From positions 1,796,001 to 1,860,000 of the forward strand of contig OX442319.1 in the NCBI GenBank assembly GCA_949358305.1: a stretch of DNA of 64,000 nucleotides. Reading direction: 5' to 3'. A program made the translations under genes and the position numbers. This DNA is from Strigamia acuminata. Its lineage: Eukaryota > Arthropoda > Chilopoda > Geophilomorpha > Linotaeniidae. Below are positions 10,697 to 46,923 of this stretch, piece by piece; positions within the stretch are counted from its first letter, which is position 1, and the number at the start of each line of letters is the position of its first letter. The notes under the pieces were generated by a model, which saw only the letters and a list, made by a program, of their open reading frames with translations, was not told where the DNA came from and did not search any database.

Positions 10697-11037
10697 CCTT
10701 TTCGCGGATTGGCTTCCGTGAAATCCGCATTTCGGGGGCGACTATTCTGGGGATTCCGGGTGGACCAAACTCTTCCGGAAAACGTCCGGGGTGGTGTTGG
10801 GAGTGTCAATAGACTGTTTTGTGTCAAGGTTGTCAATTTTCATGTGAGTATTGGAAGGTTCATTTCTGCACATTCTCATGTATTTTTTTTCACAGGAGCG
10901 ACAAGGAGCGATGAAGCGGGATCGAGCGAGAGTGGGTAAAATAAACTGGTTTACGTCTCCAATGCGCGTTCAAGATGGAATACGAACTCGGAATCGACTC
11001 CAACACGCGTTCGCGTGACATACGGACGCATTCACGA
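10697..11037 (+). repeat. left terminal repeat of unit A
   Basis: About 340 bp starting CCTTTTCGCGGATTGG and holding GCGGATT...AATCCGC inverted repeats. It recurs in the same orientation, with roughly 90% identity, at 15092-15430, and again at the left end and inside of unit B. Confidence 0.8.
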
Positions 11038-11041
11038 CCCA

Positions 11042-14000
11042 GATCAAAAAATGATCTCGTATTCGACTCGTTTTCGAGTCGAATGCAAATTTTGCCCTTC
11101 TTTGACGCGAAATCGTATTCGACTCGTTTTCGAGTCGAATGCGAGTTTTGCCCTTCTTCAACGCGAAATCGTATTCGACTCGTTTTCGAGTCGAATGCGA
11201 ATTTTGCCCTTTCTCAACGCGAAATCGTATTCGACTCGTTTTCGAGTCGAATGCGAGTTTTGCCCTTCTTCAACGCGAAATCGTATTCGACTCGTTTTCG
11301 AGTCGAATGCGAATTTTGCCCTTCTTCGACGCGAAATCGTATTCGACTCGTTTTCGAGTCGAATGCGAAATCGTATTCGACTCGTTTTCGAGTCGAATGC
11401 GAGTTTTGCCCTTCTTCAACGCGAAATCGTATTCGACTCGTTTTCGAGTCGAATGCGAATTTTGCCCTTTCTCAACGCGAAATCGTATTCGACTCGTTTT
11501 CGAGTCGAATGCGAGTTTTGCCCTTCTTCAACGCGAAATCGTATTCGACTCGTTTTCGAGTCGAATGCGAATTTTGCCCTTCTTCAACGCGAAATCGTAT
11601 TCGACTCGTTTTCGAGTCGAATGCGAATTCGTATTCGACTCGTTTTCGAGTCGAATGCGAATTTTGCCCTTCTTCAACGCGAAATCGTATTCGATTCGCT
11701 TTCGAATCGTATACGAGATGGTCGATTTTTGTTTCCCGGACTTTGATTTGTATTCGAGTTGTTACGAGTTCGTATTTTGATCGTATTCGTATTCGAATCG
11801 AATTCGAATCGTATTCGAATCGAATACGAATCGAATTCGAGTCGTATTCGAGATGGTCGATGATTTCCACTCGCTCGTATACGCGTTGTATACGAGCTCG
11901 TATTTTGATCGTAATCGTAAACGAATCGTTTACAAGTCGTATACAAGTCGTATACGACGTGTATACACCTCGTATACGAACGAAGTTTGTGAAAACACAA
12001 TTTCCAAATAAGACGTATGTGACTACTATGTGTTTTCATGTCGTAGTAAGTGTCCGGTGGATTTTCCAAACTTCGTTCGTATACGAGGTGTATACACGTC
12101 GTATACGACTTGTATACGACTTGTAAACGATTCGTTTACGATTACGATCAAAATACGAGCTCGTATACAACGCGTATACGAGCGAGTGGAAATCATCGAC
12201 CATCTCGAATGCGACTCGAATACGATTCGAATACATCTCGAATACATCTCGAATACGAGTCGTACGAGTCAAAGTCCGGGAACGGGTCATCGACTATCTC
12301 GTATTCGAGTTGTTACGAGTTCGTATTTTGATCGTATTCGTATTCGAATCGAATTCGAATCGTATTCGAATCGAATACTAATCGAATTCGAGTCGTATTC
12401 GAGATGGTCGATGATTTCCACTCGCTCGTATACGCGTTGTATACGAGCTCGTATTTTGATCGTAATCGTAAACGAATCGTTTACAAGTCGTATACAAGTC
12501 GTATACGACGTGTATACACCTCGTATACGAACGAAGTTTGGAAAATCCACCGGACACTTACTACGACATGAAAACACATAGTAGTCACATACGTCTTATT
12601 TGGAAATTGTGTTTTCACAAACTTCGTTCGTATACGAGGTGTATACACGTCGTATACGACTTGTATACGACTTGTAAACGATTCGTTTACGATTACGATC
12701 AAAATACGAGCTCGTATACAACGCGTATACGAGCGAGTGGAAATCATCGACCATCTCGAATGCGACTCGAATACGATTCGAATACATCTCGAATACATCT
12801 CGAATACGAGTCGTACGAGTCAAAGTCCGGGAACGGGTCATCGACTATCTCGTATTCGAGTTGTTACGAGTTCGTATTTTGATCGTATTCGTATTCGAAT
12901 CGAATTCGAATCGTATTCGAATCGAATACTAATCGAATTCGAGTCGTATTCGAGATGGTCGATGATTTCCACTCGCTCGTATACGCGTTGTATACGAGCT
13001 CGTATTTTGATCGTAATCGTAAACGAATCGTTTACAAGTCGTATACAAGTCGTATACGACGTGTATACACCTCGTATACGAACGAAGTTTGTGAAAACAC
13101 AATTTCCAAATAAGACGTATGTGACTACTATGTGTTTTCATGTCGTAGTAAGTGTCCGGTGGATTTTCCAAACTTCGTTCGTATACGAGGTGTATACACG
13201 TCGTATACGACTTGTATACGACTTGTAAACGATTCGTTTACGATTACGATCAAAATACGAGCTCGTATACAACGCGTATACGAGCGAGTGGAAATCATCG
13301 ACCATCTCGAATACGACTCGAATTCGATTCGTATTCGATTCGAATACGATTCGAATTCGATTCGAATACGAATACGATCAAAATACGAACTCGTAACAAC
13401 TCGAATACGAGATAGTCGATGACCCGTTCCCGGACTTTGACTCGTACGACTCGTATTCGAGATGTATTCGAGATGTATTCGAATCGTATTCGAGTCGCAT
13501 TCGAGATGGTCGATGATTTCCACTTGCTCGTATACGCGTTGTATACGAGCTCGTATTTTGATCGTAATCGTAAACGAATCGTTTACAAGTCGTATACAAG
13601 TTGTATACGACGTGTATACACCTCGTATACGAACGAAGTTTGGAAAATCCACCGGATACTTACTACGACATGAAAACACATAGTAGTCACATACGTCTTA
13701 TTTGGAAATTGTGTTTTCACAAACTTCGTTCGTATACGAGGTGTATACACGTCGTATACAACTTGTATACAACTTGTAAACGATTCGTTTACGATTACGA
13801 TCAAAATACGAGCTCGTATACAACGCGTATACGAGCGAGTGGAAATCATCGACCATCTCGAATACGACTCGAATTCGATTCGTATTCGATTCGAATACGA
13901 TTCGAATTCGATTCGAATACGAATACGATCGAAATACGAACTCGTAACAACTCGAATACGAATCAAAGTCCGGGAAACAAAAATCGACCATCTCGTATAC

Positions 14001-14760
14001 GATTCGAAAGCGAATCGAATACGATTTCGCGTTGAAGAAGGGCAAAACTCGTACTCGACTCGAAAACGAGTCGAATACGATTTCGCGTTGAAGAAGGGCA
14101 AAACTCGTACTCGACTCGAAAACGAGTCGAATACGATTTCGCGTTGAAGAAGGGCAAAACTCGTACTCGACTCGAAAACGAGTCGAATACGATTTCGCGT
14201 TGAAGAAGGGCAAAACTCGTACTCGACTCGAAAACGAGTCGAATACGATTTCGCGTTGAAGAAGGGCAAAATTCGTACTCGACTCGAAAACGAGTCGAAT
14301 ACGATTTCGCGTTGAAGAAGGGCAAAACTCGTACTCGACTCGAAAACGAGTCGAATACGATTTCGCGTTGAAGAAGGGCAAAACTCGTACTCGACTCGAA
14401 AACGAGTCGAATACGATTTCGCGTTGAAGAAGGGCAAAATTCGTACTCGACTCGAAAACGAGTCGAATACGATTTCGCGTTGAAGAAGGACAAAATTCGC
14501 ATTCGACTCGAAAACGAGTCGAATACGAATTCGCATTCGACTCGAAAACGAGTCGAATACGATTTCGCGTTGAAGAAGGGCAAAATTCGCATTCGACTCG
14601 AAAACGAGTCGAATACGATTTCGCGTTGAAGAAGGGCAAAATTCGTACTCGACTAGAAAGCGAGTCGAATACGATTTCGCGTTGAAGAAGGGCAAAATTC
14701 GTACTCGACTAGAAAGCGAGTCGAATACGATTTCGCGTTGAAAAAGGGAAAAACTCGTAC
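11042..14760. repeat. palindrome P1 of unit A: hairpin arrays flanking inverted blocks
   Basis: The left flank (11056-11700) holds twelve intact hairpins and one degenerate one, mostly with a 56 bp period. Each has arms ATTCGACTCG and CGAGTCGAAT around TTTT, followed by GCGAATTTTGCCCTTCTT and CAACGCGAAA. The right flank (about 14000-14745) is the reverse-oriented array. Between them, about 550 bp blocks full of CGTATACGA/TCGAATACGA palindromes alternate with a 79 bp unique core. Cores occur in order forward (centre 12,030), reverse (12,578), forward (13,132), reverse (13,680), symmetric about 12,855. The arms are therefore near 1.8 kb. The frames crossing it are repeat translations, not genes. 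Confidence 0.85.
11989..12067 (+). repeat. 79 bp core flanked by inverted CGAAGTTT/AAACTTCG
   Basis: The only non-palindromic sequence in the blocks. It starts GTGAAAACACAATTTCC and ends GGTGGATTTTCC, and contains TGAAAACACA...TGTGTTTTCA inverted repeats. The same core recurs four times in P1 of A, five times in P1 of B, and at the exact centre of P2 in both units, in either orientation. Confidence 0.85.
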
Positions 14761-15091
14761 GCGATTCAGTGAAACTAAATTTACATGTGCGCGTTGACGC
14801 GCGCGATTCGTGTGTTCTACGTGAGTAAATAGAGTGCGCGTCACATATGAATACAAAATGTCGACCATGCGTCGCCACGATGCCAGTGGACGAATTCTGC
14901 GAATTCGTGCAAACGCAGAAAGTTAAAAATATTCAAATTTGACGCCCACGATGACTCGTTCGTAGTAGACGCCTCCACAACTGCTTTTGAAAAGAATTTG
15001 ATAAATGTTTGGAAATAATATTTAGGATTTTCTTTAATCATATCAGGAAACTGAAAACAGAAATAAAGTTTATACATTGGAAATTTTTTAT
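14761..15091. other. spacer between P1 and internal terminal-repeat copy, unit A
   Basis: Short unique stretch with GCGCGTTGACGCGCGCG near 14800. No gene seen. The same sequence follows P1 in unit B. Confidence 0.5.
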
Positions 15092-15430
15092 CCTTTTCGC
15101 GGATTGGCGTCCGCGAAATCCGCATTTCGGGGGAGACTATTCTGCGGATTCCGGGTGGACCAAACTCTTCCGAAAAATGTCCGGGGTGGTGTTGGGAGTG
15201 TCGATAGACTGTTTTGTGTCAAGGTTGCCAATTTTCATGTAAGTATTGGAAGGTTCATTTCTGTGCATTCTCATATATTTTTTTTCACAGGAGCAATGAG
15301 GCGCGATAAAGGGGGATCAAGCGAGAGTGAAAAAGATAAACTTGTTTACGTCTCAAATGCGCGTTCGCGATGGAATACGAACTTGGAATCGACTCCAATA
15401 CGCGTTCGCGTCGCATACGAACGCATTTAC
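15092..15430 (+). repeat. internal copy of the left terminal repeat, unit A
   Basis: Starts CCTTTTCGCGGATTGG and follows the 10697-11037 sequence with scattered substitutions. The hairpin TTCGCGGA/TCCGCGAA is perfect here but degraded at the outer end, so this may be the older or more functional version. Confidence 0.8.
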
Positions 15431-18400
15431 AACTCGTTTTCGACTTTGATTAAAAAGGAACAAATATGATTAAAAATCAACAAAAATATACAAAACTTGA
15501 TAAGAAATGTATAAACATTGATTAGAAATCGACAAAAATCGACTGAAATCTGACAATAATCGAATAAAATCGGACAATAATCAATTCAGAATGACAAATA
15601 ACAATTACAATTGGTAAAAATTGACCAAAAATACAGAAAAATCGATTAAAAACCAGCAAAAACAAACAGAAAACGATTAAATCAATTAAAAATCAACAAA
15701 TAACCAAAATTGCCCTCAACACACCCCAACAACCTTCCACCACTCAAATTACACCGGAAAAAAACAAATTCAAACCGAAAAATCAACAAAGAATGCCAAA
15801 AAAAATATTGCAAACAAAGAGATAAGATCAATTCTCGAGGCAAATTCTCACCACAAAACAACGCATCGCCGCCGACATCAACTTTTTAAATTTGAGAAAC
15901 TCGCGTTTTTACGTGTACCGGTGCAGTACCGGGACCGCGGTACTTGTACTGCGGTATACATTTAAGTGTACAGTGCACAACACTACTGTTTATTTTTAAT
16001 GATCCAATAAATAAAATTTGAAACAAAGTTGAGTGGAATTGTACGTTTCTCGTATATTAAAGTTTTTATTTTTTAATTTTTTTTGTTCCATACTAGAATG
16101 GCGATTCGATACTTTTGTAGCTCGAATTCACTGATATAAACGTGGTCGGTTTTCATCACGCGTCAATGCGCTCGTGCAATAGTATAGGCGCGCATGGCTT
16201 GATGCGCACAAAACTTGCAAAACTTGCACGGAATTTGGTCAATTTTTGACAAATTTCAGCAGATTTTTGCCTATATTTGACAAATTTCCACTGATTTTTG
16301 ACAATATTTGACCCAACAACTGCGCCACGTTCCAGGCGCCGGTTTAGGCATTTTAGACCCGTTTTAGACCGTTTTAGATGGCGAAAACGTTCTCTCCATC
16401 ATTTTCTACCCCTGGGTGAGGTTTTCAGCGTTCATGATTGATGAAAAAGCTGTTTTCTAACTAGCTGTCCCATTGCTAGTTTTGGCGTCAGGTTTTAGCA
16501 ACCTTCCGATCCGACTCTGTCGTCTGCACGACCTCCAAGACTGTTTTAGGGTTAATTTGAGTCAAATAATTCATTCTGGGGGTTGTTTTGGGTTTTTTAC
16601 AAGTGTGTTTTTGTAGTTTTTATTGGTTTCAAACATTGTCAATTCTTTATACAAGTGTAACTTTCATTTCTCTGTATTTTGAGAACTTTGCATTGCAGCA
16701 AAGTTCATTTCTTGCCCCTTAATTATTGTGTAATTGTTGGTTTTGAAGCCCGTTTTTTAACAATAACTTTATTTGAAGTGCCTATTGTTTCAGGCACGTG
16801 CTTCCACGTGCCTTTTATTGTTGAGCAATTTCTTGGGCAGTTGCGCTCCTGTTGCTAGCATTGCCGCGCGTTCTCCGCGCGCGTACTCGCGTTTCGCATC
16901 ACACACATTCGGATTCGATGGCCTATCGCGGCGGCACATTGTGTGGCATAGCGCGGCACGTTGCAATTGCTAATGCTACGGTCGACGGCGATTCGCATGC
17001 GCTATCCGCTGCATCAAACCCCAAATACCGATAAAAAATCGCTGAAAACACTAATCCCGACCCAAAAACCGCCAAAATTACCCTCAACACACGCAACAAC
17101 CTTCCACCACTTAAATTACACCGGAAAAAAACAATTTCAAACCGAAAAATCAACAAAAAAGGCCAAAAAAATATTGCAAACAAAGAGAAAAGATCAATTA
17201 TCGAGGCAAATCCCCACCACAAAACAACGCATCGCCGGTATACACTTAAGCGTACAGTGCACAACACTACTGTTTATTTTCAATGATCCAATAAATAAAA
17301 TTTGAAACAAAGTTGAGTGGAATTGTACGTTTCTTGTATATTAAAGTTTTTATTTTGTTTGTTTACACTTAATTTTTTTTTTCCATCATAGAATGGCGAC
17401 TCGATACTTTTGTAGCTCGAATTCACTTCGTAAACGTGGTCGGTGTTCATCACGCGTCAATGCGCTCGTGCAATAGTATAGGCGCGCATACAATTTGATG
17501 CGCGCAAAACTTGCAAAACTTGCACGGAATTTGGGCAATTTTTGACAAATTTCAGCAGATTTTTGCCTGTATTTGACAAATTTCAGAAGATTTTTGCCTA
17601 TATTTGACAAATTTCAGAAGATTTCCTCAATCCTCAAACATTTGCTGAAATTTCTCATAAAATTTCTAAAATTAATTGAAATTTGTCTGAAATTTGTCTG
17701 GAATTTGTCAAATATTGTCAAAAATCCGTGGAAATTTGTCAAATACTGGCAAAAATCCATGTAAATTTGTCAAAAATTGCCATAATTCGGTGCAAATTGT
17801 GTTAGATATTGGAAAAATTTATTTTAACGCTTCCAACGCGCCAGTAAATCGCGCGTGCACACGCATGGATTTTTCGTCATAGTTGGATGCGCGCAAACCT
17901 CACGTAACTTGCGCCAAAATTTGGCAATTTTTGACAAATTTCAGCAGATTTTTGCCAGTATTTGACAAATTTCCACTGATTTTTGACAATATTTGACCCA
18001 ACAACTGCGCCACGTTCCAGGCGCCGGTTTAGGCATTTTAGACCCGTTTTAGACCGTTTTAGATGGCGAAAACGTTCTCTCCATCATTTTCTACCCCTGG
18101 GTGAGGTTTTCAGCGTTCATGATTGATGAAAAAGCTGTTTTCTAACTAGCTGTCCCATTGCTAGTTTTGGCGTCAGGTTTTAGCAACCTTCCGATCCGAC
18201 TCTGTCGTCTGCACGACCTCCAAGACTGTTTTAGGGTTAATTTGAGTCAAATAATTCATTCTGGGGGTTGTTTTGGGTTTTTTACAAGTGTGTTTTTGTA
18301 GTTTTTATTGGTTTCAAACATTGTCAATTCTTTATACAAGTGTAACTTTCATTTCTCTGTATTTTGAGAACTTTGCATTGCAGCAAAGTTCATTTCTTGC

Positions 18401-21400
18401 CCCTTAATTATTGTGTAATTGTTGGTTTTCAAGCCCGTTTTTTAACAATAACTTTATTTGAAGTGCCTATTGTTTCAGGCACGTGCTTCCACGTGCCTTT
18501 TATTGTTGAGCAATTTCTTGGGCAGTTGCGCTCCTGTTGCTAGCATTGCCGCGCGTTCTCCGCGCGTGTACTCGCGCGTTTCGCATCACACACATTCGGG
18601 TTCGATGGCCTATCGCGGCGGCACATTGTGTGGCATAGCGCGGCACGTTGCAATTACGTGACGTGGCACGTTGCTGTTACGTGACGCGATAGCCAGTATT
18701 TAAGCAGGGGATTCCATCATCGTTTACACAAATGCGCATTGCAACGTGGAGGCGCATTCGAGTCCTTTTCCCAAGCGAAATCGTATTCGATTCGCTTTCG
18801 AATCGAATACGAGTTTTGTCCTTTTTCAACGCGAAATCGTATTCGATTCGCTTTCGAATCGTATACGAGATGGTCGATGATTTTTGTTTCCCGGACTTTG
18901 ATTCGTATTCGAGTTGTTACGAGTTCGTATTTTGATCGTATTCGTATTCGAATCGAATTCGAATCGTATTCGAATCGAATACGAATCGAATTCGAGTCGT
19001 ATTCGAGATGGTCGATGATTTCCACTCGCTCGTATACGCGTTGTATACGAGCTCGTATTTTGATCGTAATCGTAAACGAATCGTTTACAAGTCGTATACA
19101 AGTTGTATACGACGTGTATACACCTCGTATACGAACGAAGTTTGGAAAATCCACCGGATACTTACTACGACATGAAAACACATAGTAGTCACATACGTCT
19201 TATTTGGAAATTGTGTTTTCACAAACTTCGTTCGTATACGAGGTGTATACACGTCGTATACAACTTGTATACGACTTGTAAACGATTTGTTTACGATTAC
19301 GATCAAAATACGAGCTCGTATACAACGCGTATACGAGCGAGTGGAAATCATCGACCATCTCGAATACGACTCGAATTCGATTCGTATTCGATTCGAATAC
19401 GATTCGAATTCGATTCGAATACGAATACGATCAAAATACGAACTCGTAACAACTCGAATACGAATCAAAGTCCGGGAAACAAAAATCATCGACCATCTCG
19501 TATACGATTCGAAAGCGAATCGAATACGATTTCGCGTTGAAAAAGGACAAAACTCGTATTCGATTCGAAAGCGAATCGAATACGATTTCGCTTGGGAAAA
19601 GGACTCGAATGCGCCTCCACGTTGCAATGCGCATTTGTGTAAACGATGATGGAATCCCCTGCTTAAATACTGGCTATCGCGTCACGTAACAGCAACGTGC
19701 CACGTCACGTAATTGCAACGTGCCGCGCTATGCCACACAATGTGCCGCCGCGATAGGCCATCGAACCCGAATGTGTGTGATGCGAAACGCGCGAGTACAC
19801 GCGCGGAGAACGCGCGGCAATGCTAGCAACAGGAGCGCAACTGCCCAAGAAATTGCTCAACAATAAAAGGCACGTGGAAGCACGTGCCTGAAACAATAGG
19901 CACTTCAAATAAAGTTATTGTTAAAAAACGGGCTTGAAAACCAACAATTACACAATAATTAAGGGGCAAGAAATGAACTTTGCTGCAATGCAAAGTTCTC
20001 AAAATACAGAGAAATGAAAGTTACACTTGTATAAAGAATTGACAATGTTTGAAACCAATAAAAACTACAAAAACACACTTGTAAAAAACCCAAAACAACC
20101 CCCAGAATGAATTATTTGACTCAAATTAACCCTAAAACAGTCTTGGAGGTCGTGCAGACGACAGAGTCGGATCGGAAGGTTGCTAAAACCTGACGCCAAA
20201 ACTAGCAATGGGACAGCTAGTTAGAAAACAGCTTTTTCATCAATCATGAACGCTGAAAACCTCACCCAGGGGTAGAAAATGATGGAGAGAACGTTTTCGC
20301 CATCTAAAACGGTCTAAAACGGGTCTAAAATGCCTAAACCGGCGCCTGGAACGTGGCGCAGTTGTTGGGTCAAATATTGTCAAAAATCAGTGGAAATTTG
20401 TCAAATACTGGCAAAAATCTGCTGAAATTTGTCAAAAATTGCCAAATTTTGGCGCAAGTTACGTGAGGTTTGCGCGCATCCAACTATGACGAAAAATCCA
20501 TGCGTGTGCACGCGCGATTTACTGGCGCGTTGGAAGCGTTAAAATAAATTTTTCCAATATCTAACACAATTTGCACCGAATTATGGCAATTTTTGACAAA
20601 TTTACATGGATTTTTGCCAGTATTTGACAAATTTCCACGGATTTTTGACAATATTTGACAAATTCCAGACAAATTTCAGACAAATTTCAATTAATTTTAG
20701 AAATTTTATGAGAAATTTCAGCAAATGTTTGAGGATTGAGGAAATCTTCTGAAATTTGTCAAATATAGGCAAAAATCTTCTGAAATTTGTCAAATACAGG
20801 CAAAAATCTGCTGAAATTTGTCAAAAATTGCCCAAATTCCGTGCAAGTTTTGCAAGTTTTGCGCGCATCAAATCGTATGCGCGCCTATACTATTGCACGA
20901 GCGCATTGACGCGTGATGAACACCGACCACGTTTACGAAGTGAATTCGAGCTACAAAAGTATCGAGTCGCCATTCTATGATGGAAAAAAAAAATTAAGTG
21001 TAAACAAACAAAATAAAAACTTTAATATACAAGAAACGTACAATTCCACTCAACTTTGTTTCAAATTTTATTTATTGGATCATTGAAAATAAACAGTAGT
21101 GTTGTGCACTGTACGCTTAAGTGTATACCGGCGATGCGTTGTTTTGTGGTGGGGATTTGCCTCGATAATTGATCTTTTCTCTTTGTTTGCAATATTTTTT
21201 TGGCCTTTTTTGTTGATTTTTCGGTTTGAAATTGTTTTTTTCCGGTGTAATTTAAGTGGTGGAAGGTTGTTGGCGTGTGTTGAGGGTAATTTTGGCGGTT
21301 TTTGGGTCGGGATTAGTGTTTTCTGCGATTTTTTATCGGTATTTGGGGTAACGCATGCGAATCGCCGTCGATGCGTCGACCGTAGCAAGTGTGGTTGAAG

Positions 21401-22830
21401 TGATTTCGTTCATTCGTTATTTTAATGAAAATTAGGTATTTATTGTGACCACACGAGCACGTAGCAAGTGCGCGCGCAAGTTAAATGTGTAGAGGCCTGT
21501 GAGAAAATAAAACGTGCGTGGAAGCGGCGTAAATATTCTTTGGTGACTGCCATGGGTTTGTGCTTTGTCGTGGGCGCGATATGTCTGCGATATATATATG
21601 CGTTAGGGATGAGAACGGGACCAATTTTCGGGTCCCGACCCGTCCCGGGTCCATTACGTTAGCGTAATACGCGCGTATGATTGCATAATTGAAATAAATC
21701 AGTATTAAGCCTAATATTAGGCCTAATAATGCTAAAATAAAGTAAAGAAACAACAATATTTTGGTCATACAGTGTAATTTACTTTTAATAATGAGTTTGT
21801 TGTTGTTGTTTATTTACTTTATTTTAGCATTATCAGGCTCAATATTAGGCTTAATAGTGATAAATAACAACTGGAATTAGAAAATTGTCTCCGCCTCGCA
21901 GTACGAATTTAGCAACTGTAATCCCGTCCCGTCCCGTATCCGCATAGGGCAAACATTACCAGTCCAGTCCCTATCCCGGTCTGTTCTTATCCCTAATATG
22001 CGTGATGTAGCGCGTTTGCGCGCGCGATCTAGTGCGTTTGAGCGCGCGATGTAGCACCTTGAGCGTGTCCAAATGTGTACAGGTGCTCAAAAGATGTGCG
22101 AGGGCTTCACGTGCATACACGAAGCATAAACGTGAAGAAAACAGCAGAAGCAGTTGTGTGTGATATTTATAAAACCACATCACACAAGGGAATACTACTA
22201 ATGATACAAAAAGCAATAAACTTTATGAATATTGAAATAAACTTACAAAATGGTGGAAAAAACATGGCGTACTGCCTTGAATATATGCCGGGATGTTATC
22301 AATCTTCCGGGCCCCATGTGTGTTTGATTTTAGTCCTAATTTTGGTGTATTTTTTTTTTTTTTGCCTTGGTTTTTCTCGTTTCTTGGAGAGTGCTGAGGC
22401 ATGCCGAGGTGTTCTCGGGCGTGTGCGCCTGTTGAAGATCGAGCGTTTCATATTTTGTGTTTAATAAGCCTACCGTGGTGCCTCGAGCGTTTATTAATTT
22501 CTCCACTCGAGGCACTTCACTAACACCTCCCCGGTGTTTAAACGAGTAGCGGCGCTTATTTGATCCCGGTGTTTACTGTTTAAAATTGTCGTGTGTTTTC
22601 AAAGTTCTTAATTTGTTTAAAAGCAAACAAAATGGATATTTGTTAATTTTTATTTGATTTTATCAATTTCTATTGGTTTCTTGCTGATTTTTAATCGGTT
22701 TTTCTCTATTTGTGACAATTTTTGCCAATTTTAATCGTTATTTGTCATTCTGAATTGATTATTGTCCGATTTCAGTCGATTTTTGTTGATTTTTAATCAT
22801 GTTTGTTCGTTTTTAATCAATTTTTGTCCC
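15431..22830. repeat. palindrome P2 of unit A with outer inverted flanks
   Basis: Near-perfect inverted arms of about 2.17 kb (17012-19183 and 19183-21355) meet at 19183, where the 79 bp core sits. Matching segments are equidistant from this point, for example 18458-18661 against 19705-19908 and 17386-17610 against 20756-20980. Outside, AT-rich flanks are again inverted: GACAATAATCAATTCAGAAT at 15573 pairs with its reverse complement ending at 22766. A module of about 1.3 kb is also present as a direct repeat (about 15730-16990 and 17050-18655). Tandem variants of TTTGACAAATTTCAGCAGAT occur at about 16230-16310 and 17530-17990. No convincing gene. Confidence 0.85.
21604..21995. mobile_element. 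hAT-type MITE inside unit A (392 bp)
   Basis: Termini TAGGGATGAGAACGGGACC and, inverted, GGTCTGTTCTTATCCCTA. ATATGCGT flanks both sides exactly (21596-21603, 21996-22003), an 8 bp target duplication typical of hAT. An inner inverted repeat of about 45 bp (TAAGCCTAATATTAGG and its complement) makes it foldback-like. No coding capacity. Confidence 0.85.
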
Positions 22831-28885: not shown

Positions 28886-28889
28886 CCCA

Positions 28890-33195: not shown

Positions 33196-33524
33196 GATTC
33201 AGTGAAACTAAATTTACATGTGCGCGTTGACGCGCGCGATTCGTGTGTTCTACGTGAGTAAATAGAGTGCGCGTCACATATGAATACAAAATGTCGACCA
33301 TGCGTCGCCACGATGCCAGTGGACGAATTCTGCGAATTCGTGCAAACGCAGAAAGTTAAAAATATTCAAATTTGACGCCCACGATGACTCGTTCGTAGTA
33401 GACGCCTCCACAACTGCTTTTGAAAAGAATTTGATAAATGTTTGGAAATAATATTTAGGATTTTCTTTAATCATATCAGGAAACTGAAAACAGAAATAAA
33501 GTTTATACATTGGAAATTTTTTAT

Positions 33525-33863: not shown

Positions 33864-36800
33864 AACTCGTTTTCGACTTTGATTAAAAAGGAACAAATAT
33901 GATTAAAAATCAACAAAAATATACAAAACTTGATAAGAAATGTATAAACATTGATTAGAAATCGACAAAAATCGACTGAAATCTGACAATAATCGAATAA
34001 AATCGGACAATAATCAATTCAGAATGACAAATAACAATTACAATTGGTAAAAATTGACCAAAAATACAGAAAAATCGATTAAAAACCAGCAAAAACAAAC
34101 AGAAAACGATTAAATCAATTAAAAATCAACAAATAACCAAAATTGCCCTCAACACACCCCAACAACCTTCCACCACTCAAATTACACCGGAAAAAAACAA
34201 ATTCAAACCGAAAAATCAACAAAGAATGCCAAAAAAAATATTGCAAACAAAGAGATAAGATCAATTCTCGAGGCAAATTCTCACCACAAAACAACGCATC
34301 GCCGCCGACATCAACTTTTTAAATTTGAGAAACTCGCGTTTTTACGTGTACCGGTGCAGTACCGGGACCGCGGTACTTGTACTGCGGTATACATTTAAGT
34401 GTACAGTGCACAACACTACTGTTTATTTTTAATGATCCAATAAATAAAATTTGAAACAAAGTTGAGTGGAATTGTACGTTTCTCGTATATTAAAGTTTTT
34501 ATTTTTTAATTTTTTTTGTTCCATACTAGAATGGCGATTCGATACTTTTGTAGCTCGAATTCACTGATATAAACGTGGTCGGTTTTCATCACGCGTCAAT
34601 GCGCTCGTGCAATAGTATAGGCGCGCATGGCTTGATGCGCACAAAACTTGCAAAACTTGCACGGAATTTGGTCAATTTTTGACAAATTTCAGCAGATTTT
34701 TGCCTATATTTGACAAATTTCCACTGATTTTTGACAATATTTGACCCAACAACTGCGCCACGTTCCAGGCGCCGGTTTAGGCATTTTAGACCCGTTTTAG
34801 ACCGTTTTAGATGGCGAAAACGTTCTCTCCATCATTTTCTACCCCTGGGTGAGGTTTTCAGCGTTCATGATTGATGAAAAAGCTGTTTTCTAACTAGCTG
34901 TCCCATTGCTAGTTTTGGCGTCAGGTTTTAGCAACCTTCCGATCCGACTCTGTCGTCTGCACGACCTCCAAGACTGTTTTAGGGTTAATTTGAGTCAAAT
35001 AATTCATTCTGGGGGTTGTTTTGGGTTTTTTACAAGTGTGTTTTTGTAGTTTTTATTGGTTTCAAACATTGTCAATTCTTTATACAAGTGTAACTTTCAT
35101 TTCTCTGTATTTTGAGAACTTTGCATTGCAGCAAAGTTCATTTCTTGCCCCTTAATTATTGTGTAATTGTTGGTTTTGAAGCCCGTTTTTTAACAATAAC
35201 TTTATTTGAAGTGCCTATTGTTTCAGGCACGTGCTTCCACGTGCCTTTTATTGTTGAGCAATTTCTTGGGCAGTTGCGCTCCTGTTGCTAGCATTGCCGC
35301 GCGTTCTCCGCGCGCGTACTCGCGTTTCGCATCACACACATTCGGATTCGATGGCCTATCGCGGCGGCACATTGTGTGGCATAGCGCGGCACGTTGCAAT
35401 TGCTAATGCTACGGTCGACGGCGATTCGCATGCGCTATCCGCTGCATCAAACCCCAAATACCGATAAAAAATCGCTGAAAACACTAATCCCGACCCAAAA
35501 ACCGCCAAAATTACCCTCAACACACGCAACAACCTTCCACCACTTAAATTACACCGGAAAAAAACAATTTCAAACCGAAAAATCAACAAAAAAGGCCAAA
35601 AAAATATTGCAAACAAAGAGAAAAGATCAATTATCGAGGCAAATCCCCACCACAAAACAACGCATCGCCGGTATACACTTAAGCGTACAGTGCACAACAC
35701 TACTGTTTATTTTCAATGATCCAATAAATAAAATTTGAAACAAAGTTGAGTGGAATTGTACGTTTCTTGTATATTAAAGTTTTTATTTTGTTTGTTTACA
35801 CTTAATTTTTTTTTTCCATCATAGAATGGCGACTCGATACTTTTGTAGCTCGAATTCACTTCGTAAACGTGGTCGGTGTTCATCACGCGTCAATGCGCTC
35901 GTGCAATAGTATAGGCGCGCATACAATTTGATGCGCGCAAAACTTGCAAAACTTGCACGGAATTTGGGCAATTTTTGACAAATTTCAGCAGATTTTTGCC
36001 TGTATTTGACAAATTTCAGAAGATTTTTGCCTATATTTGACAAATTTCAGAAGATTTCCTCAATCCTCAAACATTTGCTGAAATTTCTCATAAAATTTCT
36101 AAAATTAATTGAAATTTGTCTGAAATTTGTCTGGAATTTGTCAAATATTGTCAAAAATCCGTGGAAATTTGTCAAATACTGGCAAAAATCCATGTAAATT
36201 TGTCAAAAATTGCCATAATTCGGTGCAAATTGTGTTAGATATTGGAAAAATTTATTTTAACGCTTCCAACGCGCCAGTAAATCGCGCGTGCACACGCATG
36301 GATTTTTCGTCATAGTTGGATGCGCGCAAACCTCACGTAACTTGCGCCAAAATTTGGCAATTTTTGACAAATTTCAGCAGATTTTTGCCAGTATTTGACA
36401 AATTTCCACTGATTTTTGACAATATTTGACCCAACAACTGCGCCACGTTCCAGGCGCCGGTTTAGGCATTTTAGACCCGTTTTAGACCGTTTTAGATGGC
36501 GAAAACGTTCTCTCCATCATTTTCTACCCCTGGGTGAGGTTTTCAGCGTTCATGATTGATGAAAAAGCTGTTTTCTAACTAGCTGTCCCATTGCTAGTTT
36601 TGGCGTCAGGTTTTAGCAACCTTCCGATCCGACTCTGTCGTCTGCACGACCTCCAAGACTGTTTTAGGGTTAATTTGAGTCAAATAATTCATTCTGGGGG
36701 TTGTTTTGGGTTTTTTACAAGTGTGTTTTTGTAGTTTTTATTGGTTTCAAACATTGTCAATTCTTTATACAAGTGTAACTTTCATTTCTCTGTATTTTGA

Positions 36801-39800
36801 GAACTTTGCATTGCAGCAAAGTTCATTTCTTGCCCCTTAATTATTGTGTAATTGTTGGTTTTCAAGCCCGTTTTTTAACAATAACTTTATTTGAAGTGCC
36901 TATTGTTTCAGGCACGTGCTTCCACGTGCCTTTTATTGTTGAGCAATTTCTTGGGCAGTTGCGCTCCTGTTGCTAGCATTGCCGCGCGTTCTCCGCGCGT
37001 GTACTCGCGCGTTTCGCATCACACACATTCGGGTTCGATGGCCTATCGCGGCGGCACATTGTGTGGCATAGCGCGGCACGTTGCAATTACGTGACGTGGC
37101 ACGTTGCTGTTACGTGACGCGATAGCCAGTATTTAAGCAGGGGATTCCATCATCGTTTACACAAATGCGCATTGCAACGTGGAGGCGCATTCGAGTCCTT
37201 TTCCCAAGCGAAATCGTATTCGATTCGCTTTCGAATCGAATACGAGTTTTGTCCTTTTTCAACGCGAAATCGTATTCGATTCGCTTTCGAATCGTATACG
37301 AGATGGTCGATGATTTTTGTTTCCCGGACTTTGATTCGTATTCGAGTTGTTACGAGTTCGTATTTTGATCGTATTCGTATTCGAATCGAATTCGAATCGT
37401 ATTCGAATCGAATACGAATCGAATTCGAGTCGTATTCGAGATGGTCGATGATTTCCACTCGCTCGTATACGCGTTGTATACGAGCTCGTATTTTGATCGT
37501 AATCGTAAACGAATCGTTTACAAGTCGTATACAAGTTGTATACGACGTGTATACACCTCGTATACGAACGAAGTTTGGAAAATCCACCGGATACTTACTA
37601 CGACATGAAAACACATAGTAGTCACATACGTCTTATTTGGAAATTGTGTTTTCACAAACTTCGTTCGTATACGAGGTGTATACACGTCGTATACAACTTG
37701 TATACGACTTGTAAACGATTTGTTTACGATTACGATCAAAATACGAGCTCGTATACAACGCGTATACGAGCGAGTGGAAATCATCGACCATCTCGAATAC
37801 GACTCGAATTCGATTCGTATTCGATTCGAATACGATTCGAATTCGATTCGAATACGAATACGATCAAAATACGAACTCGTAACAACTCGAATACGAATCA
37901 AAGTCCGGGAAACAAAAATCATCGACCATCTCGTATACGATTCGAAAGCGAATCGAATACGATTTCGCGTTGAAAAAGGACAAAACTCGTATTCGATTCG
38001 AAAGCGAATCGAATACGATTTCGCTTGGGAAAAGGACTCGAATGCGCCTCCACGTTGCAATGCGCATTTGTGTAAACGATGATGGAATCCCCTGCTTAAA
38101 TACTGGCTATCGCGTCACGTAACAGCAACGTGCCACGTCACGTAATTGCAACGTGCCGCGCTATGCCACACAATGTGCCGCCGCGATAGGCCATCGAACC
38201 CGAATGTGTGTGATGCGAAACGCGCGAGTACACGCGCGGAGAACGCGCGGCAATGCTAGCAACAGGAGCGCAACTGCCCAAGAAATTGCTCAACAATAAA
38301 AGGCACGTGGAAGCACGTGCCTGAAACAATAGGCACTTCAAATAAAGTTATTGTTAAAAAACGGGCTTGAAAACCAACAATTACACAATAATTAAGGGGC
38401 AAGAAATGAACTTTGCTGCAATGCAAAGTTCTCAAAATACAGAGAAATGAAAGTTACACTTGTATAAAGAATTGACAATGTTTGAAACCAATAAAAACTA
38501 CAAAAACACACTTGTAAAAAACCCAAAACAACCCCCAGAATGAATTATTTGACTCAAATTAACCCTAAAACAGTCTTGGAGGTCGTGCAGACGACAGAGT
38601 CGGATCGGAAGGTTGCTAAAACCTGACGCCAAAACTAGCAATGGGACAGCTAGTTAGAAAACAGCTTTTTCATCAATCATGAACGCTGAAAACCTCACCC
38701 AGGGGTAGAAAATGATGGAGAGAACGTTTTCGCCATCTAAAACGGTCTAAAACGGGTCTAAAATGCCTAAACCGGCGCCTGGAACGTGGCGCAGTTGTTG
38801 GGTCAAATATTGTCAAAAATCAGTGGAAATTTGTCAAATACTGGCAAAAATCTGCTGAAATTTGTCAAAAATTGCCAAATTTTGGCGCAAGTTACGTGAG
38901 GTTTGCGCGCATCCAACTATGACGAAAAATCCATGCGTGTGCACGCGCGATTTACTGGCGCGTTGGAAGCGTTAAAATAAATTTTTCCAATATCTAACAC
39001 AATTTGCACCGAATTATGGCAATTTTTGACAAATTTACATGGATTTTTGCCAGTATTTGACAAATTTCCACGGATTTTTGACAATATTTGACAAATTCCA
39101 GACAAATTTCAGACAAATTTCAATTAATTTTAGAAATTTTATGAGAAATTTCAGCAAATGTTTGAGGATTGAGGAAATCTTCTGAAATTTGTCAAATATA
39201 GGCAAAAATCTTCTGAAATTTGTCAAATACAGGCAAAAATCTGCTGAAATTTGTCAAAAATTGCCCAAATTCCGTGCAAGTTTTGCAAGTTTTGCGCGCA
39301 TCAAATCGTATGCGCGCCTATACTATTGCACGAGCGCATTGACGCGTGATGAACACCGACCACGTTTACGAAGTGAATTCGAGCTACAAAAGTATCGAGT
39401 CGCCATTCTATGATGGAAAAAAAAAATTAAGTGTAAACAAACAAAATAAAAACTTTAATATACAAGAAACGTACAATTCCACTCAACTTTGTTTCAAATT
39501 TTATTTATTGGATCATTGAAAATAAACAGTAGTGTTGTGCACTGTACGCTTAAGTGTATACCGGCGATGCGTTGTTTTGTGGTGGGGATTTGCCTCGATA
39601 ATTGATCTTTTCTCTTTGTTTGCAATATTTTTTTGGCCTTTTTTGTTGATTTTTCGGTTTGAAATTGTTTTTTTCCGGTGTAATTTAAGTGGTGGAAGGT
39701 TGTTGGCGTGTGTTGAGGGTAATTTTGGCGGTTTTTGGGTCGGGATTAGTGTTTTCTGCGATTTTTTATCGGTATTTGGGGTAACGCATGCGAATCGCCG

Positions 39801-41263
39801 TCGATGCGTCGACCGTAGCAAGTGTGGTTGAAGTGATTTCGTTCATTCGTTATTTTAATGAAAATTAGGTATTTATTGTGACCACACGAGCACGTAGCAA
39901 GTGCGCGCGCAAGTTAAATGTGTAGAGGCCTGTGAGAAAATAAAACGTGCGTGGAAGCGGCGTAAATATTCTTTGGTGACTGCCATGGGTTTGTGCTTTG
40001 TCGTGGGCGCGATATGTCTGCGATATATATATGCGTTAGGGATGAGAACGGGACCAATTTTCGGGTCCCGACCCGTCCCGGGTCCATTACGTTAGCGTAA
40101 TACGCGCGTATGATTGCATAATTGAAATAAATCAGTATTAAGCCTAATATTAGGCCTAATAATGCTAAAATAAAGTAAAGAAACAACAATATTTTGGTCA
40201 TACAGTGTAATTTACTTTTAATAATGAGTTTGTTGTTGTTGTTTATTTACTTTATTTTAGCATTATCAGGCTCAATATTAGGCTTAATAGTGATAAATAA
40301 CAACTGGAATTAGAAAATTGTCTCCGCCTCGCAGTACGAATTTAGCAACTGTAATCCCGTCCCGTCCCGTATCCGCATAGGGCAAACATTACCAGTCCAG
40401 TCCCTATCCCGGTCTGTTCTTATCCCTAATATGCGTGATGTAGCGCGTTTGCGCGCGCGATCTAGTGCGTTTGAGCGCGCGATGTAGCACCTTGAGCGTG
40501 TCCAAATGTGTACAGGTGCTCAAAAGATGTGCGAGGGCTTCACGTGCATACACGAAGCATAAACGTGAAGAAAACAGCAGAAGCAGTTGTGTGTGATATT
40601 TATAAAACCACATCACACAAGGGAATACTACTAATGATACAAAAAGCAATAAACTTTATGAATATTGAAATAAACTTACAAAATGGTGGAAAAAACATGG
40701 CGTACTGCCTTGAATATATGCCGGGATGTTATCAATCTTCCGGGCCCCATGTGTGTTTGATTTTAGTCCTAATTTTGGTGTATTTTTTTTTTTTTTGCCT
40801 TGGTTTTTCTCGTTTCTTGGAGAGTGCTGAGGCATGCCGAGGTGTTCTCGGGCGTGTGCGCCTGTTGAAGATCGAGCGTTTCATATTTTGTGTTTAATAA
40901 GCCTACCGTGGTGCCTCGAGCGTTTATTAATTTCTCCACTCGAGGCACTTCACTAACACCTCCCCGGTGTTTAAACGAGTAGCGGCGCTTATTTGATCCC
41001 GGTGTTTACTGTTTAAAATTGTCGTGTGTTTTCAAAGTTCTTAATTTGTTTAAAAGCAAACAAAATGGATATTTGTTAATTTTTATTTGATTTTATCAAT
41101 TTCTATTGGTTTCTTGCTGATTTTTAATCGGTTTTTCTCTATTTGTGACAATTTTTGCCAATTTTAATCGTTATTTGTCATTCTGAATTGATTATTGTCC
41201 GATTTCAGTCGATTTTTGTTGATTTTTAATCATGTTTGTTCGTTTTTAATCAATTTTTGTCCC
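33864..41263. repeat. palindrome P2 of unit B with outer inverted flanks
   Basis: Arms 35445-37616 and 37616-39788 meet at 37616 on the same core. Paired segments include 36891-37094 with 38138-38341. Same layout as P2 of unit A. Confidence 0.85.
40037..40428. mobile_element. hAT-type MITE inside unit B (392 bp)
   Basis: Same element, same site and same ATATGCGT duplication as 21604-21995. It was therefore in the ancestor of both units. Confidence 0.85.
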
Positions 41264-44200
41264 ATGCCTTACGATCAGTTCGAATAATTGACACCATACT
41301 GTGCTGTTACTCGTATTCAAGATGGCGTCGCAAACTCAAGGCCGAATTCCGCTGATTTCATTTATTGCGACTGTTTGCGCTCCATACGTGTGAAAAGGAT
41401 TATGGGAAAAATCCTCAATGCAGGCCATTTTGGTGTTAAATGAGCGAGGAAGGCAGGAGATGAGAAAAATTTGTAAAATTTCAAAAAAAAGCTAAACAAT
41501 CAAAATTTACATGAAGATCAATATTTCTGGCTCGAAATGCATGTATCAGCAATTTCGGGATATTTTCGGGGTGAAATTGACTCGTTCGGAACACTGGGAA
41601 GGAACCCCACCCCGCATTCCCCATGCGTCGGCGCGCGCGTAGACGAAAATTCAAATCCAGGTGTTCAGACGGCCCCACGTTATTTTCGGGTTCCAAGTTG
41701 GGTTTCACAAATGTACCGTATTGCCTCGAATAAACGCCGGGACGTTTATTAAACTTCTCGTGTGTGTTTAATTTTGATCCGCATTTAACTGTTTTTTTTT
41801 TCACCGAAAGTTACTTCATTTTTTATTAACATGGAAAAAGAATGAACCTTTACAAAATACTAATAATAACGTTATAATAAGCAGTTACAATTGAAATTAA
41901 AACAACATTTTTTTTTTAATTAGAAACCAAAGCAGAATCATCCCTAAATTCTGACACGGCGTTGTCAAACAAACAGTTGGCGCCAAAACGAGAAATTAGG
42001 CAACAAAACATTTTGAATGCTACAAAAACACATTAAATAACCATAAAACAAATAAAAATAAATACAACAGCTAAACCAAATTGTAATAAACAAGACAGCA
42101 AAGTGTGGGAGTGAGTGACAACGCCAAAAAAACGCCCGAAAACGCCCCAAGAACGCACCAAAACGCCCCAAGAACGCACCAAAACGCCAGATAACCGTGC
42201 AACTTGAGGCAAAAAACATGCGAACATAATTTTTTGCTTTGAGTGGCACGATTTTCAGGCTTTTTGGAGCATTTTGAAGCGTTTTGGGGCGTTTTAGAAC
42301 GTTTTTGCTTATTTTTTAGCATTCTCATGCGAGCTCGCGCGTGCAGGCGAGAAAAAAACAAACTTATTTCTTCAAGAGTTAAAAAAAAAATAACCCTAAC
42401 CAGGAAATTACTGTAAAAACAACGGCTTGCCTCGAATAAACGCCGGGGCGTTTACTAATTTTCAAGACTGGAAGTGAGGCGAGATGTTGTTTGCTTTATT
42501 TGTTAAAACAAATTAGGCGTCACTAATTCACCTGTATTAGGGTTTCGGTTCTGAGAAACCGGACGAGGAGTCACAATAACGGGACACGGGAAATTTCAAA
42601 ACTTACCGGTTCCGTCAAAACGCCATTGAAACGTTACATTTTTATAGCGTGTCAATGATAAAAATGGTCATTTTGGATGAAAAACGGCCATTTTGGATGA
42701 AAAATGGCCATTTTTACTATAAAAAATGGCTGAAAATGGCCATTTTTACTATGACAAATGGCTGAAAATGGCCATTTTAATAAAAAAAGGCCATTTTTAC
42801 TTCGAAAATTGGCTAAAAATGGCCACTTGAGTGAGTGACAACGCCAAAAAACGCGTGCAAACGCCTGCGAACGCCCCAAAACGCCCCAAAACGCCAGATG
42901 ACAATGCAACTTGAGGCATAAAACTTGAAAACACAATTTTAAACGTCACAAAAGTTGAAACAAAGATGAAAAATTAATTTTTTGCCTCAAGTTGCGCGAT
43001 TTTCAGGTCTTTTGGAGTGTTTTTGAGCATTTTTTGGCGTTCTCAGCGGCGTGTTTGCCTCAAATAAACGCCGGTTTAAACAAAAAATGACGTCATTTTT
43101 GGTTTAAAATTGAAGTAAAACACAAAATATTTTAGTTTTTAAATGCAACTGGTCTAAATTTTGTCAAATGTTGTCATACTTCTTGAAAGTCATCATTTAT
43201 TGATAAAAAATTTGAAAATTTACCTAATTGTAGCATGTATTTGTGGTTAGTTTTGATTTGAATTCAAACTGTAATTTTTTGCTTCGAGTTGCGCGATTTT
43301 CAGGCGTTTTGGGGCGTTTTTGAGCTTTTTTTGGCGTCCTCAGGCGAGCTCGCGCGTGCACGTCACAAGTAACCCTAATCAGGAAAGAACCTACAAAAAC
43401 TATGGCTTGCCTCGCATAAACGCCGGGGCGTTTATTCATTTTCAAAAAGACAAATGAAATGGATAAATAAAGAAATTAGCGGGGAAATCCAACATGGCGC
43501 CCACTTCAAATCCGCTAGAGCGGCAAAACACGACATTTGAATTTCAACACAAGAATAAAATCAAGAATACACACTGTATTGAATAAAATAACATTAGGAA
43601 ATGTAATTTCCTACAACAAAAGCACTATTTATTAAAAGAACACTTGAAAATAATCGTTTGCCGAACGGAATGAACTCGGTCAGCAGCGCACAAGTGCGTA
43701 CCGACAACAAACGCTCGAAACGACAAAACGACCGTTCCGGGACAAAAATAAAGCAAACCAATCGACAGATCACCCCCAAATTAGTCTAAATCAATTCTAA
43801 AACCTATCCATAACACAAGAATAAGGTCCAAACAAAAGGTTAGAAGTTTGAACACAACCGAACTAGATTAAGAAATATGACGTCACGCGTCTTACGCAAG
43901 TGATCTGTAAATCGACGGATGCACTAAAAATCATCCAAAATCACACAAAATGAGCAAGAATTAAAGAAATAAGACACAGAGAAGTAATAAAACTTTAAAT
44001 AGCAATGAATAAAGATAATATCAATATCATAGACACTAAAATTCATGAAAACACTGTAACTTTTAATAAATCACAAAAAATGAAAGTTTAATATGTAAAA
44101 ATATCTAAAAAGCTGAAATTCAAGAAAAGCAAAAATTAAAGACACTTTGTTAACTTTAATTAAGACAATAAATGACATAAAATCCGGACACAACAATTAT

Positions 44201-45913
44201 TCCATTTTGGATGAAAAACGGCCCTTTTGGATGAAAAACGGCCATTTTGGATGAAAAACGGCTAAAAATGACCATTTTTCTATGAAAAATGGGTAAAAAT
44301 GGCTAAAAATGGCTATTTGATTGAATGACAACGCCAAAAAACGCCCAAGAACGCCCGCAAATGCCTAAAAATGCCTAAAAACGCCCCAAAACGCAAAATG
44401 ACAATGCAACTTGAGGCAAAAAACATGAGAACACAATTGTAAACGTTACAAAAGTTGAAACAAAAATAAACAATTAATGTTTTGCCTCGAGTTGCACGAT
44501 TTTCAGGCGTTTTGGAGTATTTTTTGGCGTTCTCAGGCGTACTCGCGCGTACACGTCACTGCCGAGTAAAAAAAACATACTTATTTCTTCAAGAGTTAAA
44601 AAGGAAGTAACCCTAATCAGGAAAAAAAATGCAAAAACAATGGCTTGCCTCGAACAAACGCCAGAAGTGAGGCGAGATGTTGTTTGCTTTATTTATTAAA
44701 TCAAATTAGGCGTTGCTAATTCACCTGTATCTCTTAGTTCGACGTAAGAACACGCGCTTTTTTTAAAATGAAAGCCCAAGTTGGGTTTCATAAACGTACC
44801 GTATTGCCTTGAATAAAAGCCGGGGTGTTTATTAATTTTTAAGACCAGAAACGAGGCGAGATCACGACTCAAGATTAAGCGAGAAGAAATAAACGTGTTT
44901 CTTCTAAAGGAAGTAACCCTAATCAGGAAAAACTTACATAAACAATGGTTTGCCTTGAATAAACGCCGGGGCGTTTATAAATTTTCAAGACGGGAGGCAA
45001 GGTGAGATGATGATGCGGTGCGACGCGAATAAAAGCCCAAGTTGGGTGTTGCCTCGAATAAACGCCGGGGCGTTTATTAATTTTCAAAACCGGAAATGAG
45101 GCGAGATCAAAACGCCATTGAAACGTTACATTTTAATAACGTTTCAACGATAAAAACGGCCATTTTTGATTAAAAAAACGACTAAAAATGGCCATTTTAC
45201 TATAAAAACGGTGAAAAAAAAACATTTTTACTCTGAAAAATGGCTAAAAATGGCCATTTTGACGAAAAACGGCCATTTTTACTACGGAAAATGCTAAAAT
45301 TGGCCACTTGAGTGAGTGACAACGCCAAAAAACGCCTGCGAACGCCTGCGAACACATAAAAACACTCCAAAACGCCAGATGACAATGCAACTTGAGGCAA
45401 AAAACATGAGAACACAATTTTAAACGTCACAAAAGTTGAAATAAAGATGAAAAATTAATGTTTTGCCTCGAGTTGCGCGATTTTCAGGCGTTTTTGAGCG
45501 TTTTTTTAGCATTTTTTGGCGTTCTCAGGCGTGCTCGTGTGTACACGTCACTGCCGAAGAAAAAAACAAACTTATTTCTTTTAGTTAAAATGTATTTCAA
45601 GCTTTAACAGGGGTTTAAACAGAAAATGACATCATTTTTAGTTTAAAATTGAAGTAAAACACAAAATATTTTAGTTTTTGAATGCAACTGATCCACGTTA
45701 TGTCAAATGTTTCCATTACTTCTTGAAAGCCAAAAAATTTGAAAATTTAGCTAATTTCAGCATGTATTTGTAGCTAGTTTTGATTTGAATACACACTGTA
45801 ATGTTTTGCCTCGAGTTGCGCGATTTTCAGGCGTTTTGGGACGTTTTGGAGCAAAAAAAACAAACTTAATTCTTCAAGAGTTAAAAAGGAAGTAATCCTA
45901 ATCAGGAAAAGCC
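40903..45913. repeat. degenerate palindrome-rich module array, unit B
   Basis: Counterpart of 22470-27480 with the same modules in the same order. Confidence 0.75.
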
Positions 45914-46923
45914 CACAAAAAACAATGCAAGATCACGCGGTACGACGCACGGACTCCCAGCGCACGGAATGCACGGACTTTCTGTGGACTTCCCGTGCAC
46001 GGAAGACCGGCGCGGACATTTCCATTGGAGACCAGCGCAGAATTACCTACAGGCAATTCCGAATCAAAGGCTTCTTTATGGTTTATACATTACTTTGCAG
46101 TAGGTATGCCTGGCCTTGATTTGAAAGTGCAGTAAATTCTGCTGAATGCAGTGTTTTAAACTCGCAGCAATTGCGATGGTGCCAACTATTGGAAAATAAA
46201 TTTAAAATGTAAAACCAAAGAATTTGTAAAAAAAATTTGTTTTAATCAATTGCAATAATGATATTCTACTTAATTGTTGGATTATGAAACGTGAAACCAA
46301 TCCCATGATTAGGAAATATAAATTTTATTAAATTCATCGTGTATCTCACATCTCACATTCACTGCCATTTACTTAGTGTCATCCAAAAATCAGGTTTTAT
46401 CAAATCCTGAGGTTATTCTAGTACGTCTTAACTGCCCGGCAGGTCGCGCAACCTGTGGAGCAACAATTGATGTAAATAGTGCAAGCAGCACGCACGGGAA
46501 AGTGCGCACTGATGGGTCCATGCCAGTGCAAGTACATTGGGTAATGTATTATTGCGAGCGCGCGTGTTTTCACACGATTACAATGTGCTGATTAAACCAA
46601 CAGCATTATAGAAGCATTATAGACTGATTATATTGTATAATTTTTATTTTAACAAAACCCTGAATTTCATTTCTAATCGGTTTTTTTTTTATTGACGCGC
46701 ACAGAAGCGTTGTAGCATGTTCACACAATGTGGAATTTGCAAATTTGAGAAAGCGGCTTTCCCAAGGTTGATAAAACGCGCGCGATCGTGCGGAATATAC
46801 AAATAAGTGAAATCCGCAAAATCAGCCATGAGACTGCGAACAGGGGGTCAAGGTATAGGCCGCCGTAATGTTAAAAATAGGGTCCCTTTCGCACTCCGAG
46901 AAATCCGCATGCGCGCCATAAGG
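45914..46923. other. right tail of unit B
   Basis: Counterpart of 27481-28490. It ends GCGCCATAAGG and is followed directly by ATAG and resumed gag sequence. An open frame from 46807 runs through this end into gag; the part before 46924 is element sequence, not gag. Confidence 0.7.

Follow-up and report, generated by a model that had tools for sequence, protein, structure and literature searches.

Non-autonomous DNA transposons are usually short, miniature inverted-repeat transposable elements (MITEs) staying under about 1 kb, and elements of the piggyBac superfamily usually carry perfect terminal inverted repeats of 12-19 bp. Portions of two papers (PMC10175614, PMC5601938) give the rule for piggyBac as CCYT termini and a TTAA target, describe Teratorn, a giant piggyBac-herpesvirus element of medaka, as having internal terminal inverted repeats (TIRs) at the border of its long inverted repeats, and mention rolling-circle concatemers as a source of integration. 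Here we report on a stretch of 64,000 nucleotides from the geophilomorph centipede Strigamia acuminata (GenBank assembly GCA_949358305.1, contig OX442319.1, positions 1,796,001 to 1,860,000 of the forward strand; hereafter the window), in which a block at positions 10697-46923 lies inside the gag gene of a retrotransposon. We consider it very likely that in this block two copies of a giant, gene-free, non-autonomous DNA transposon, here termed E, form a dimer, and that E owes its mobility to a piggyBac-type transposase acting in trans, encoded either by a giant element of the same genome, termed G, or by a sister transposase family, termed X.

Anatomy and insertion site of the dimer

A preliminary description of the window, made from its letters alone, had placed a 36.2-kb block in gag, with ATAG on both sides and gag resuming in frame, and this is borne out by the borders and by the joined flanks. 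A single ATAG duplication encloses the whole pair of units, and the reading frame of gag is unbroken once the flanks of the block are joined. When the 240-bp joined flank was searched against the genome (237.5 Mb in 157 contigs), 40 of 267 first-look candidates were scored; all 40 match over the full length at 98% identity or more, and seven of these are perfect over the full length. The seven perfect empty sites together with the ATAG duplication therefore demonstrate that the insertion of the block was precise and that its empty site is known. As both 682-bp long terminal repeats (LTRs) of the host retrotransposon are identical, the insertion of the latter is likely to be recent, and that of the block within it would be younger still. 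Assembling palindromes and tandem repeats is difficult, and the lengths of the arrays may be wrong; nevertheless, an assembly artefact, be it a collapsed or chimeric palindrome or a false duplication, is a most improbable source of the block, as it would have to account for the precise target duplication, the seven perfect empty sites and the many copies that occur at different loci with constant junctions.

The block had been taken for one 36-kb element, a reading that is ruled out by self-comparison, which revealed two units of about 18 kb arranged head to tail on either side of a 54-bp spacer (Table 1). A direct repeat (11750-28490 versus 30183-46923) is 99.77% identical over 16,744 bp, and the second left end starts at 28545. 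Each unit is organized in the order left end, palindrome 1, internal left end, palindrome 2, a less repetitive right part, and right end. CCTT and GCGGATT, both listed before as shared by the ends, are present at either tip, but only CCTT is identical in place, while GCGGATT recurs at position 8 on the left and at position 16 on the right. As first proposed, no plausible protein gene is found in the block. Its long open reading frames (ORFs) are translations of low-complexity repeats, and among eight block ORFs scanned against Pfam four gave matches, none with a stretch that passes on its own, which were taken as repeat artefacts; similarly, no Rfam family reached its gathering score between 10600 and 47000.

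The proportion of inverted repeats was lower than initially described. Large palindromes are indeed present, but the largest one found is about 4.4 kb instead of the upper bound of the 3.7-7.4 kb that had been given, and the block is not built almost wholly of inverted repeats: those of at least 100 bp take up 9,848 of 17,794 bp (55%) in unit 1 and 2,719 bp (24%) in a unit of 11,527 bp on contig C4. Palindrome content thus differs between the units read, and palindromes are therefore no fixed requirement. As an alternative, a new type of element that folds upon itself had been suggested. Large palindromes are present in both window units, but that they drive the movement of the element we regard as scarcely credible, since the C4 dimer to which the 11.5-kb unit belongs, with just 24% inverted-repeat content, likewise has NTAN flanks (ATAT on the left, TTAT on the right), and since ends and targets fit piggyBac chemistry.

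Copies, target sites and the giant relative

Other copies of the element were looked for and turned out to be numerous, with constant ends. The first 21 bases of the left end have 219 exact copies in the genome and the last 17 bases of the right end 249, compared with 0 copies for the reversed control patterns of both; as these short ends are common to G, the counts cover E and G together. A 424-bp right-end query, which extends past the part common to G and is thus specific to E, yielded at least 41 full-length matches (40 scored of 546 candidates). On contigs C1, C3 and C4, 68 end clusters were counted by eye, comprising 16 clean dimers (left end, right end, spacer, left end, right end), 12 clean monomers, and others that are longer, partial, single-ended or rearranged; in the dimers, the spans from left to right end, by coordinates, range from 6.8 to 36 kb.

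All outer flanks of the fetched loci conform to NTAN (43 of 43 distinct left and 44 of 44 distinct right flanks), TTAA being the commonest (18 left, 24 right); the set takes in a few rearranged junctions (e.g. L113 and L115, see below) as well as the G-type ends of loci L119-L123. Identical 4-mers stand on both sides of the window dimer and of 12 of the 22 other arrays, namely eight of 11 dimers and four of 11 monomers. Different borders, or a lack of 4-bp duplications, in other copies had been named as findings that would speak against a mobile insertion. Neither was encountered in a way that refutes it: the borders do not vary, and every flank fetched conforms to NTAN, yet the 4-mers are unequal in the other ten arrays. 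In seven of these ten the right-hand 4-mer is TTAA, which might be the overhang of an earlier site brought along with the element. A second empty-site case comes from the comparison of loci L116 and L118. On contig C74 the left end of an E copy precedes an X gene by about 140 bp and is bordered by ATAA, whereas the copy on contig C137 has the same site without E; of this E insertion one side was read.

The block had been described as lacking any recognisable relative, along with the suggestion to look for an autonomous element with the same ends and a transposase. Such an element, G, is present in the same genome, and the absence of a relative is thereby ruled out. The piggyBac transposase domain PF13843 gave 131 genomic matches. 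Two families among them, X and Y, are split by introns and present in high copy number, and Y lies inside G. Transposase Y splices to 641 amino acids with no internal stop and has aspartates D299/D388/D500. Four of its exons match DDE_Tnp_1_7, and structures of piggyBat (9c0f, 4.8e-18) and piggyBac (6x67, 8.7e-17) were matched in the PDB; in the protein database it matches six unnamed proteins at 41-52% identity and one at 23%. The left end of G upstream of one Y is identical to that of E at 362 of 364 positions, and three right ends downstream of Y at 163, 164 and 163 of 181 aligned columns; only the last ~180 bp are common, and two right ends compared over more length diverge from E further inward. 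A giant-specific right-end region occurs within 100 kb downstream of at least 19 of 43 Y matches, 18 of them co-oriented at distances of 6.7 to 96 kb, many near 40-50 kb, with two Y sharing one right end. Correspondingly, a giant-type left end of the 100% class lies within 100 kb upstream of Y in at least eight cases, all eight co-oriented and seven of them at 14.8-16.8 kb. Both counts are lower bounds, because the right-end regions compared were the 40 scored out of 354 candidates, and the left ends the best 28 out of 545. One Y has a left end downstream, namely that of contig C154. From left to right end, G spans about 55 kb (C3), 58 kb (C5), 66 kb (C1) and 23 kb (C26), and the copy at C1:25816626-25882486 has TTAA on both sides.

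A gene upstream of Y gave PHD-like and RTC4-like matches, both under the curated cut-offs, and just these domains and the transposase were detected in the G pieces scanned, which are a sample of the element; eight ORFs from two of these pieces had no Pfam match above cut-off. In the pieces of G and X that were read, some 30 kb in total, of which some exons and ORFs were scanned and part is masked, no recognisable viral gene was found. In three places (C9:2744343, C5:13633158, C94:27083) the Y domain lies in open frames of 1931-1950 codons as opposed to the usual 255. Upstream of transposase X, repeated tRNA-like stretches (GGGTGGCCGAGCGG...GTTCGAGTCCCGC) occur at positions 1-1150 of locus L118; ARAGORN (bacterial code) identified no tRNA at five loci with tRNA-like repeats upstream of X.

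Thus, the NTAN/TTAA duplications, the empty sites, the lack of a detected gene in E and the existence of a transposase-encoding relative with the same ends agree with the earlier proposal that the block is a large DNA transposon, non-autonomous and mobilised in trans. The common ends and the choice of target suggest that the transposase of G, or that of the sister family X, recognises the ends of E and acts on it in trans. It would cut at ends of the form CCTT.../...AAGG and join them to NTAN targets, with a preference for TTAA, giving rise to 4-bp duplications. The outermost ends of an array would be usable as well, so that arrays with an internal right end-spacer-left end junction may move as one unit, and the window dimer would have entered gag in this fashion. 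E itself might be a derivative of G that arose by deletion and repeat expansion.

Several observations weigh against this explanation. No transposition event has been observed, and instead of the perfect 12-19 bp terminal inverted repeats E has just CCTT and an offset GCGGATTT motif. The 4-mers are unequal in ten of 22 arrays, and monomers have matching ones less often than dimers. The right end of E is only about 90% identical to that of G, and besides the ends a single stretch of about 83 bp (78% identity, at two places in E) joins E to the compared pieces of G; what was read of G and X comes to about 30 kb, in pieces and in part masked. Finally, the right end nearest to one Y is oppositely oriented, and three Y matches have a right-end region upstream, two of them co-oriented.

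E resembles members of the piggyBac superfamily, non-autonomous ones in particular, in its CCYT-type termini (CCTT), its 4-bp target duplication of the TTAA type, and a partner, G, with a DDE_Tnp_1_7 transposase in which a DDD triad is combined with a C-terminal segment rich in Cys. It differs in the length of its gene-free units (11.5 to 18.4 kb among those read), in the lack of a long perfect terminal inverted repeat, in NTAN targets that are often unequal, and in arrays with a constant spacer. Like MITEs, E is non-coding, of high copy number, probably mobilised in trans and has ends in common with an autonomous element; unlike them, it is palindrome-rich and arrayed, and it exceeds their size many times. 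Polintons (Mavericks) have a 6-bp duplication and long inverted terminal repeats, and Polintons and terminons alike differ from E in their enzymes and target duplications, lacking a 4-bp NTAN duplication with piggyBac-type ends. A Polinton, comparable in its large size, is thus ruled out by the NTAN duplication and the lack of a long terminal inverted repeat in E, and a Helitron, which leaves no target-site duplication, by the ATAG duplication with its perfect empty sites. Terminons (PMC6431247) are also large and form head-to-tail arrays. With Teratorn, as far as it is covered by the portions cited above, the likeness extends to a giant piggyBac-encoding element, TTAA targeting and CCYT ends, and the internal left end that follows the first palindrome of E recalls the internal TIRs at the border of the long inverted repeats. 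The sampled parts of G, in contrast, gave nothing beyond the transposase and domains of PHD-like and RTC4-like type, and in E no gene was detected; these portions (PMC5601938, PMC10175614) make no mention of arrays linked by a spacer. In the titles and abstract openings that searches of the open-access literature returned, we found no description of the E family or of a spacer-linked piggyBac array. It would appear that E, a young family whose gene-free units measure 11.5 to 18 kb, moves with precision in 36-kb pairs beside a piggyBac-encoding relative of about 55 kb.

Arrays joined by a 54-bp spacer

Both E and G, the latter judged from coordinates, occur in arrays that are joined by the same spacer, the last 25 bases of which have 88 exact copies in the genome. 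The spacer ends exactly where giant-type left ends start (C154:43349|43350 and C46:9727|9728) and, by coordinates, adjoins a giant right end at C1:66533294. On C154 the order is Y (2965), spacer (43325-43349), left end (43350) and Y (58198), which on coordinates alone corresponds to a head-to-tail period of 55.2 kb. The spacer can join either end: at L113 (C3:6607000-6607500) it lies in a head-to-head junction between two left ends. At another locus (L115, C1:66500848) the left end occurs in triplicate with a 382-bp period, the first copy preceded by ATAC, the second and third by CTAG. Next to an E copy at C1:45735132-45751652 (L032/L080) the spacer starts but gives way to other sequence after its initial part, which may show where the spacer originated.

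Two origins of the dimers are conceivable, namely the spread of one founder junction as a composite, or a circle or concatemer in which element and spacer are joined. The former, with a somewhat better than even chance in our estimation, would require a founder double insertion of two elements 54 bp apart that spread as a composite and was subsequently reshaped by unequal exchange and gene conversion. A fixed spacer and movable dimers are accounted for in this way without a circle, and the window dimer does combine two left-end repeat patterns. At L127 (C8:182040-182260), three spacers with a 50-bp period and ATAT in between are flanked by a right and a left end, as would be expected if two units had been precisely excised; a native minisatellite is possible as well, and either fits a chromosomal origin. 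However, E and the ~55-kb G have the same spacer, and the founder junction must hence have passed between very different elements.

A fixed spacer common to G and the gene-free E would be accounted for if circles of element plus spacer were copied head to tail and the transposase then inserted pieces for which any left end and any right end could serve as borders; E would be a satellite of G akin to a defective genome. This idea, which would refine rather than replace mobilisation in trans, is tentative and the less probable of the two. It is hinted at by the fixed spacer, which joins units at scattered loci (the 16 clean dimers among the 68 end clusters) and is found directly before giant-type left ends and next to a giant right end, and by the periodic arrangement on C154. 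Unit lengths, which vary from dimer to dimer, are equal to within 1 bp in four of 16 dimers, and among 39 left ends the haplotypes are closer within arrays than between them (mean distance 85.2 versus 174.2 for 13 within-array pairs; four of 5000 shuffles were as low), four of the 13 pairs being identical. Against it, no circle has been observed, nine of the 13 pairs are non-identical, several with closer relatives elsewhere, and gene conversion or mobile pre-formed dimers fit the pattern too. It might even be speculated, with slightly less confidence still, that G, in the manner of an episome or a virus, is a piggyBac element replicating as a spacer-containing circle or concatemer, and that E is its gene-free satellite, which kept only the cis-acting ends and the spacer and was copied and inserted as monomers, dimers and longer arrays throughout the genome. 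The dimers probably move as units, and the constant 54-bp spacer in both passenger and giant makes it possible to test if a transposon of the cut-and-paste type may, in addition, replicate through a circle or concatemer.

Features of the window

The coordinates of the dimer and of the retrotransposon in which it resides are compiled in Table 1.

Table 1. Positions in the window of the parts of the E dimer, its target-site duplication and the host retrotransposon
Feature	Position	Strand	Remarks
5' LTR, host retrotransposon	9659-10340	+	682 bp, 100% identical to 57940-58621
Interrupted gag, start	10435-10696	+	ATG at 10435; frame picks up at 46928
Target-site duplication ATAG, left	10693-10696	.	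single copy in the 7 perfect empty sites
Unit 1 of dimer	10697-28490	+	17,794 bp
Unit 1 left end (CCTTTTCGCGGATT...)	10697-11056	+	first 21 bases: 219 genomic copies, E and G together
Palindrome 1, unit 1	11057-14674	.	made of 56-bp and ~550-bp repeats
Older internal left end, unit 1	15092-15427	+	90.5% identical; TTAT directly before
Palindrome 2, unit 1	16974-21387	.	arms 98.4%
Unit 1 right end (...GCGCGCCATAAGG)	28311-28490	+	final ~180 bp common to giant element G (~90%)
Spacer between units, TTAA...ATAT	28491-28544	.	54 bp; last 25 bases: 88 exact genomic copies
Unit 2 of dimer	28545-46923	+	18,379 bp
Palindrome 1, unit 2	28905-33163	.	array longer than that of unit 1
Internal left end, unit 2	33525-33860	+	equivalent of 15092-15427; start located, end inferred from unit 1
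Palindrome 2, unit 2	35407-39820	.	
Unit 2 right end	46744-46923	+	last 17 bases: 249 genomic copies, E and G together
Target-site duplication ATAG, right	46924-46927	.	
Remainder of gag, and pol (protease, reverse transcriptase, RNase H, integrase), host retrotransposon	46928-53909	+	
3' LTR, host retrotransposon	57940-58621	+	pairs with the 5' LTR by self-comparison

Two further observations concern the retrotransposons of the window. The host element contains a frame of 933 amino acids 3' of pol (54952-57753), for which no Pfam match was obtained at E 0.001. It is adjoined by a second element, represented by a gag-pol-like retrotransposon frame of 1426 amino acids on the minus strand (5185-9465).

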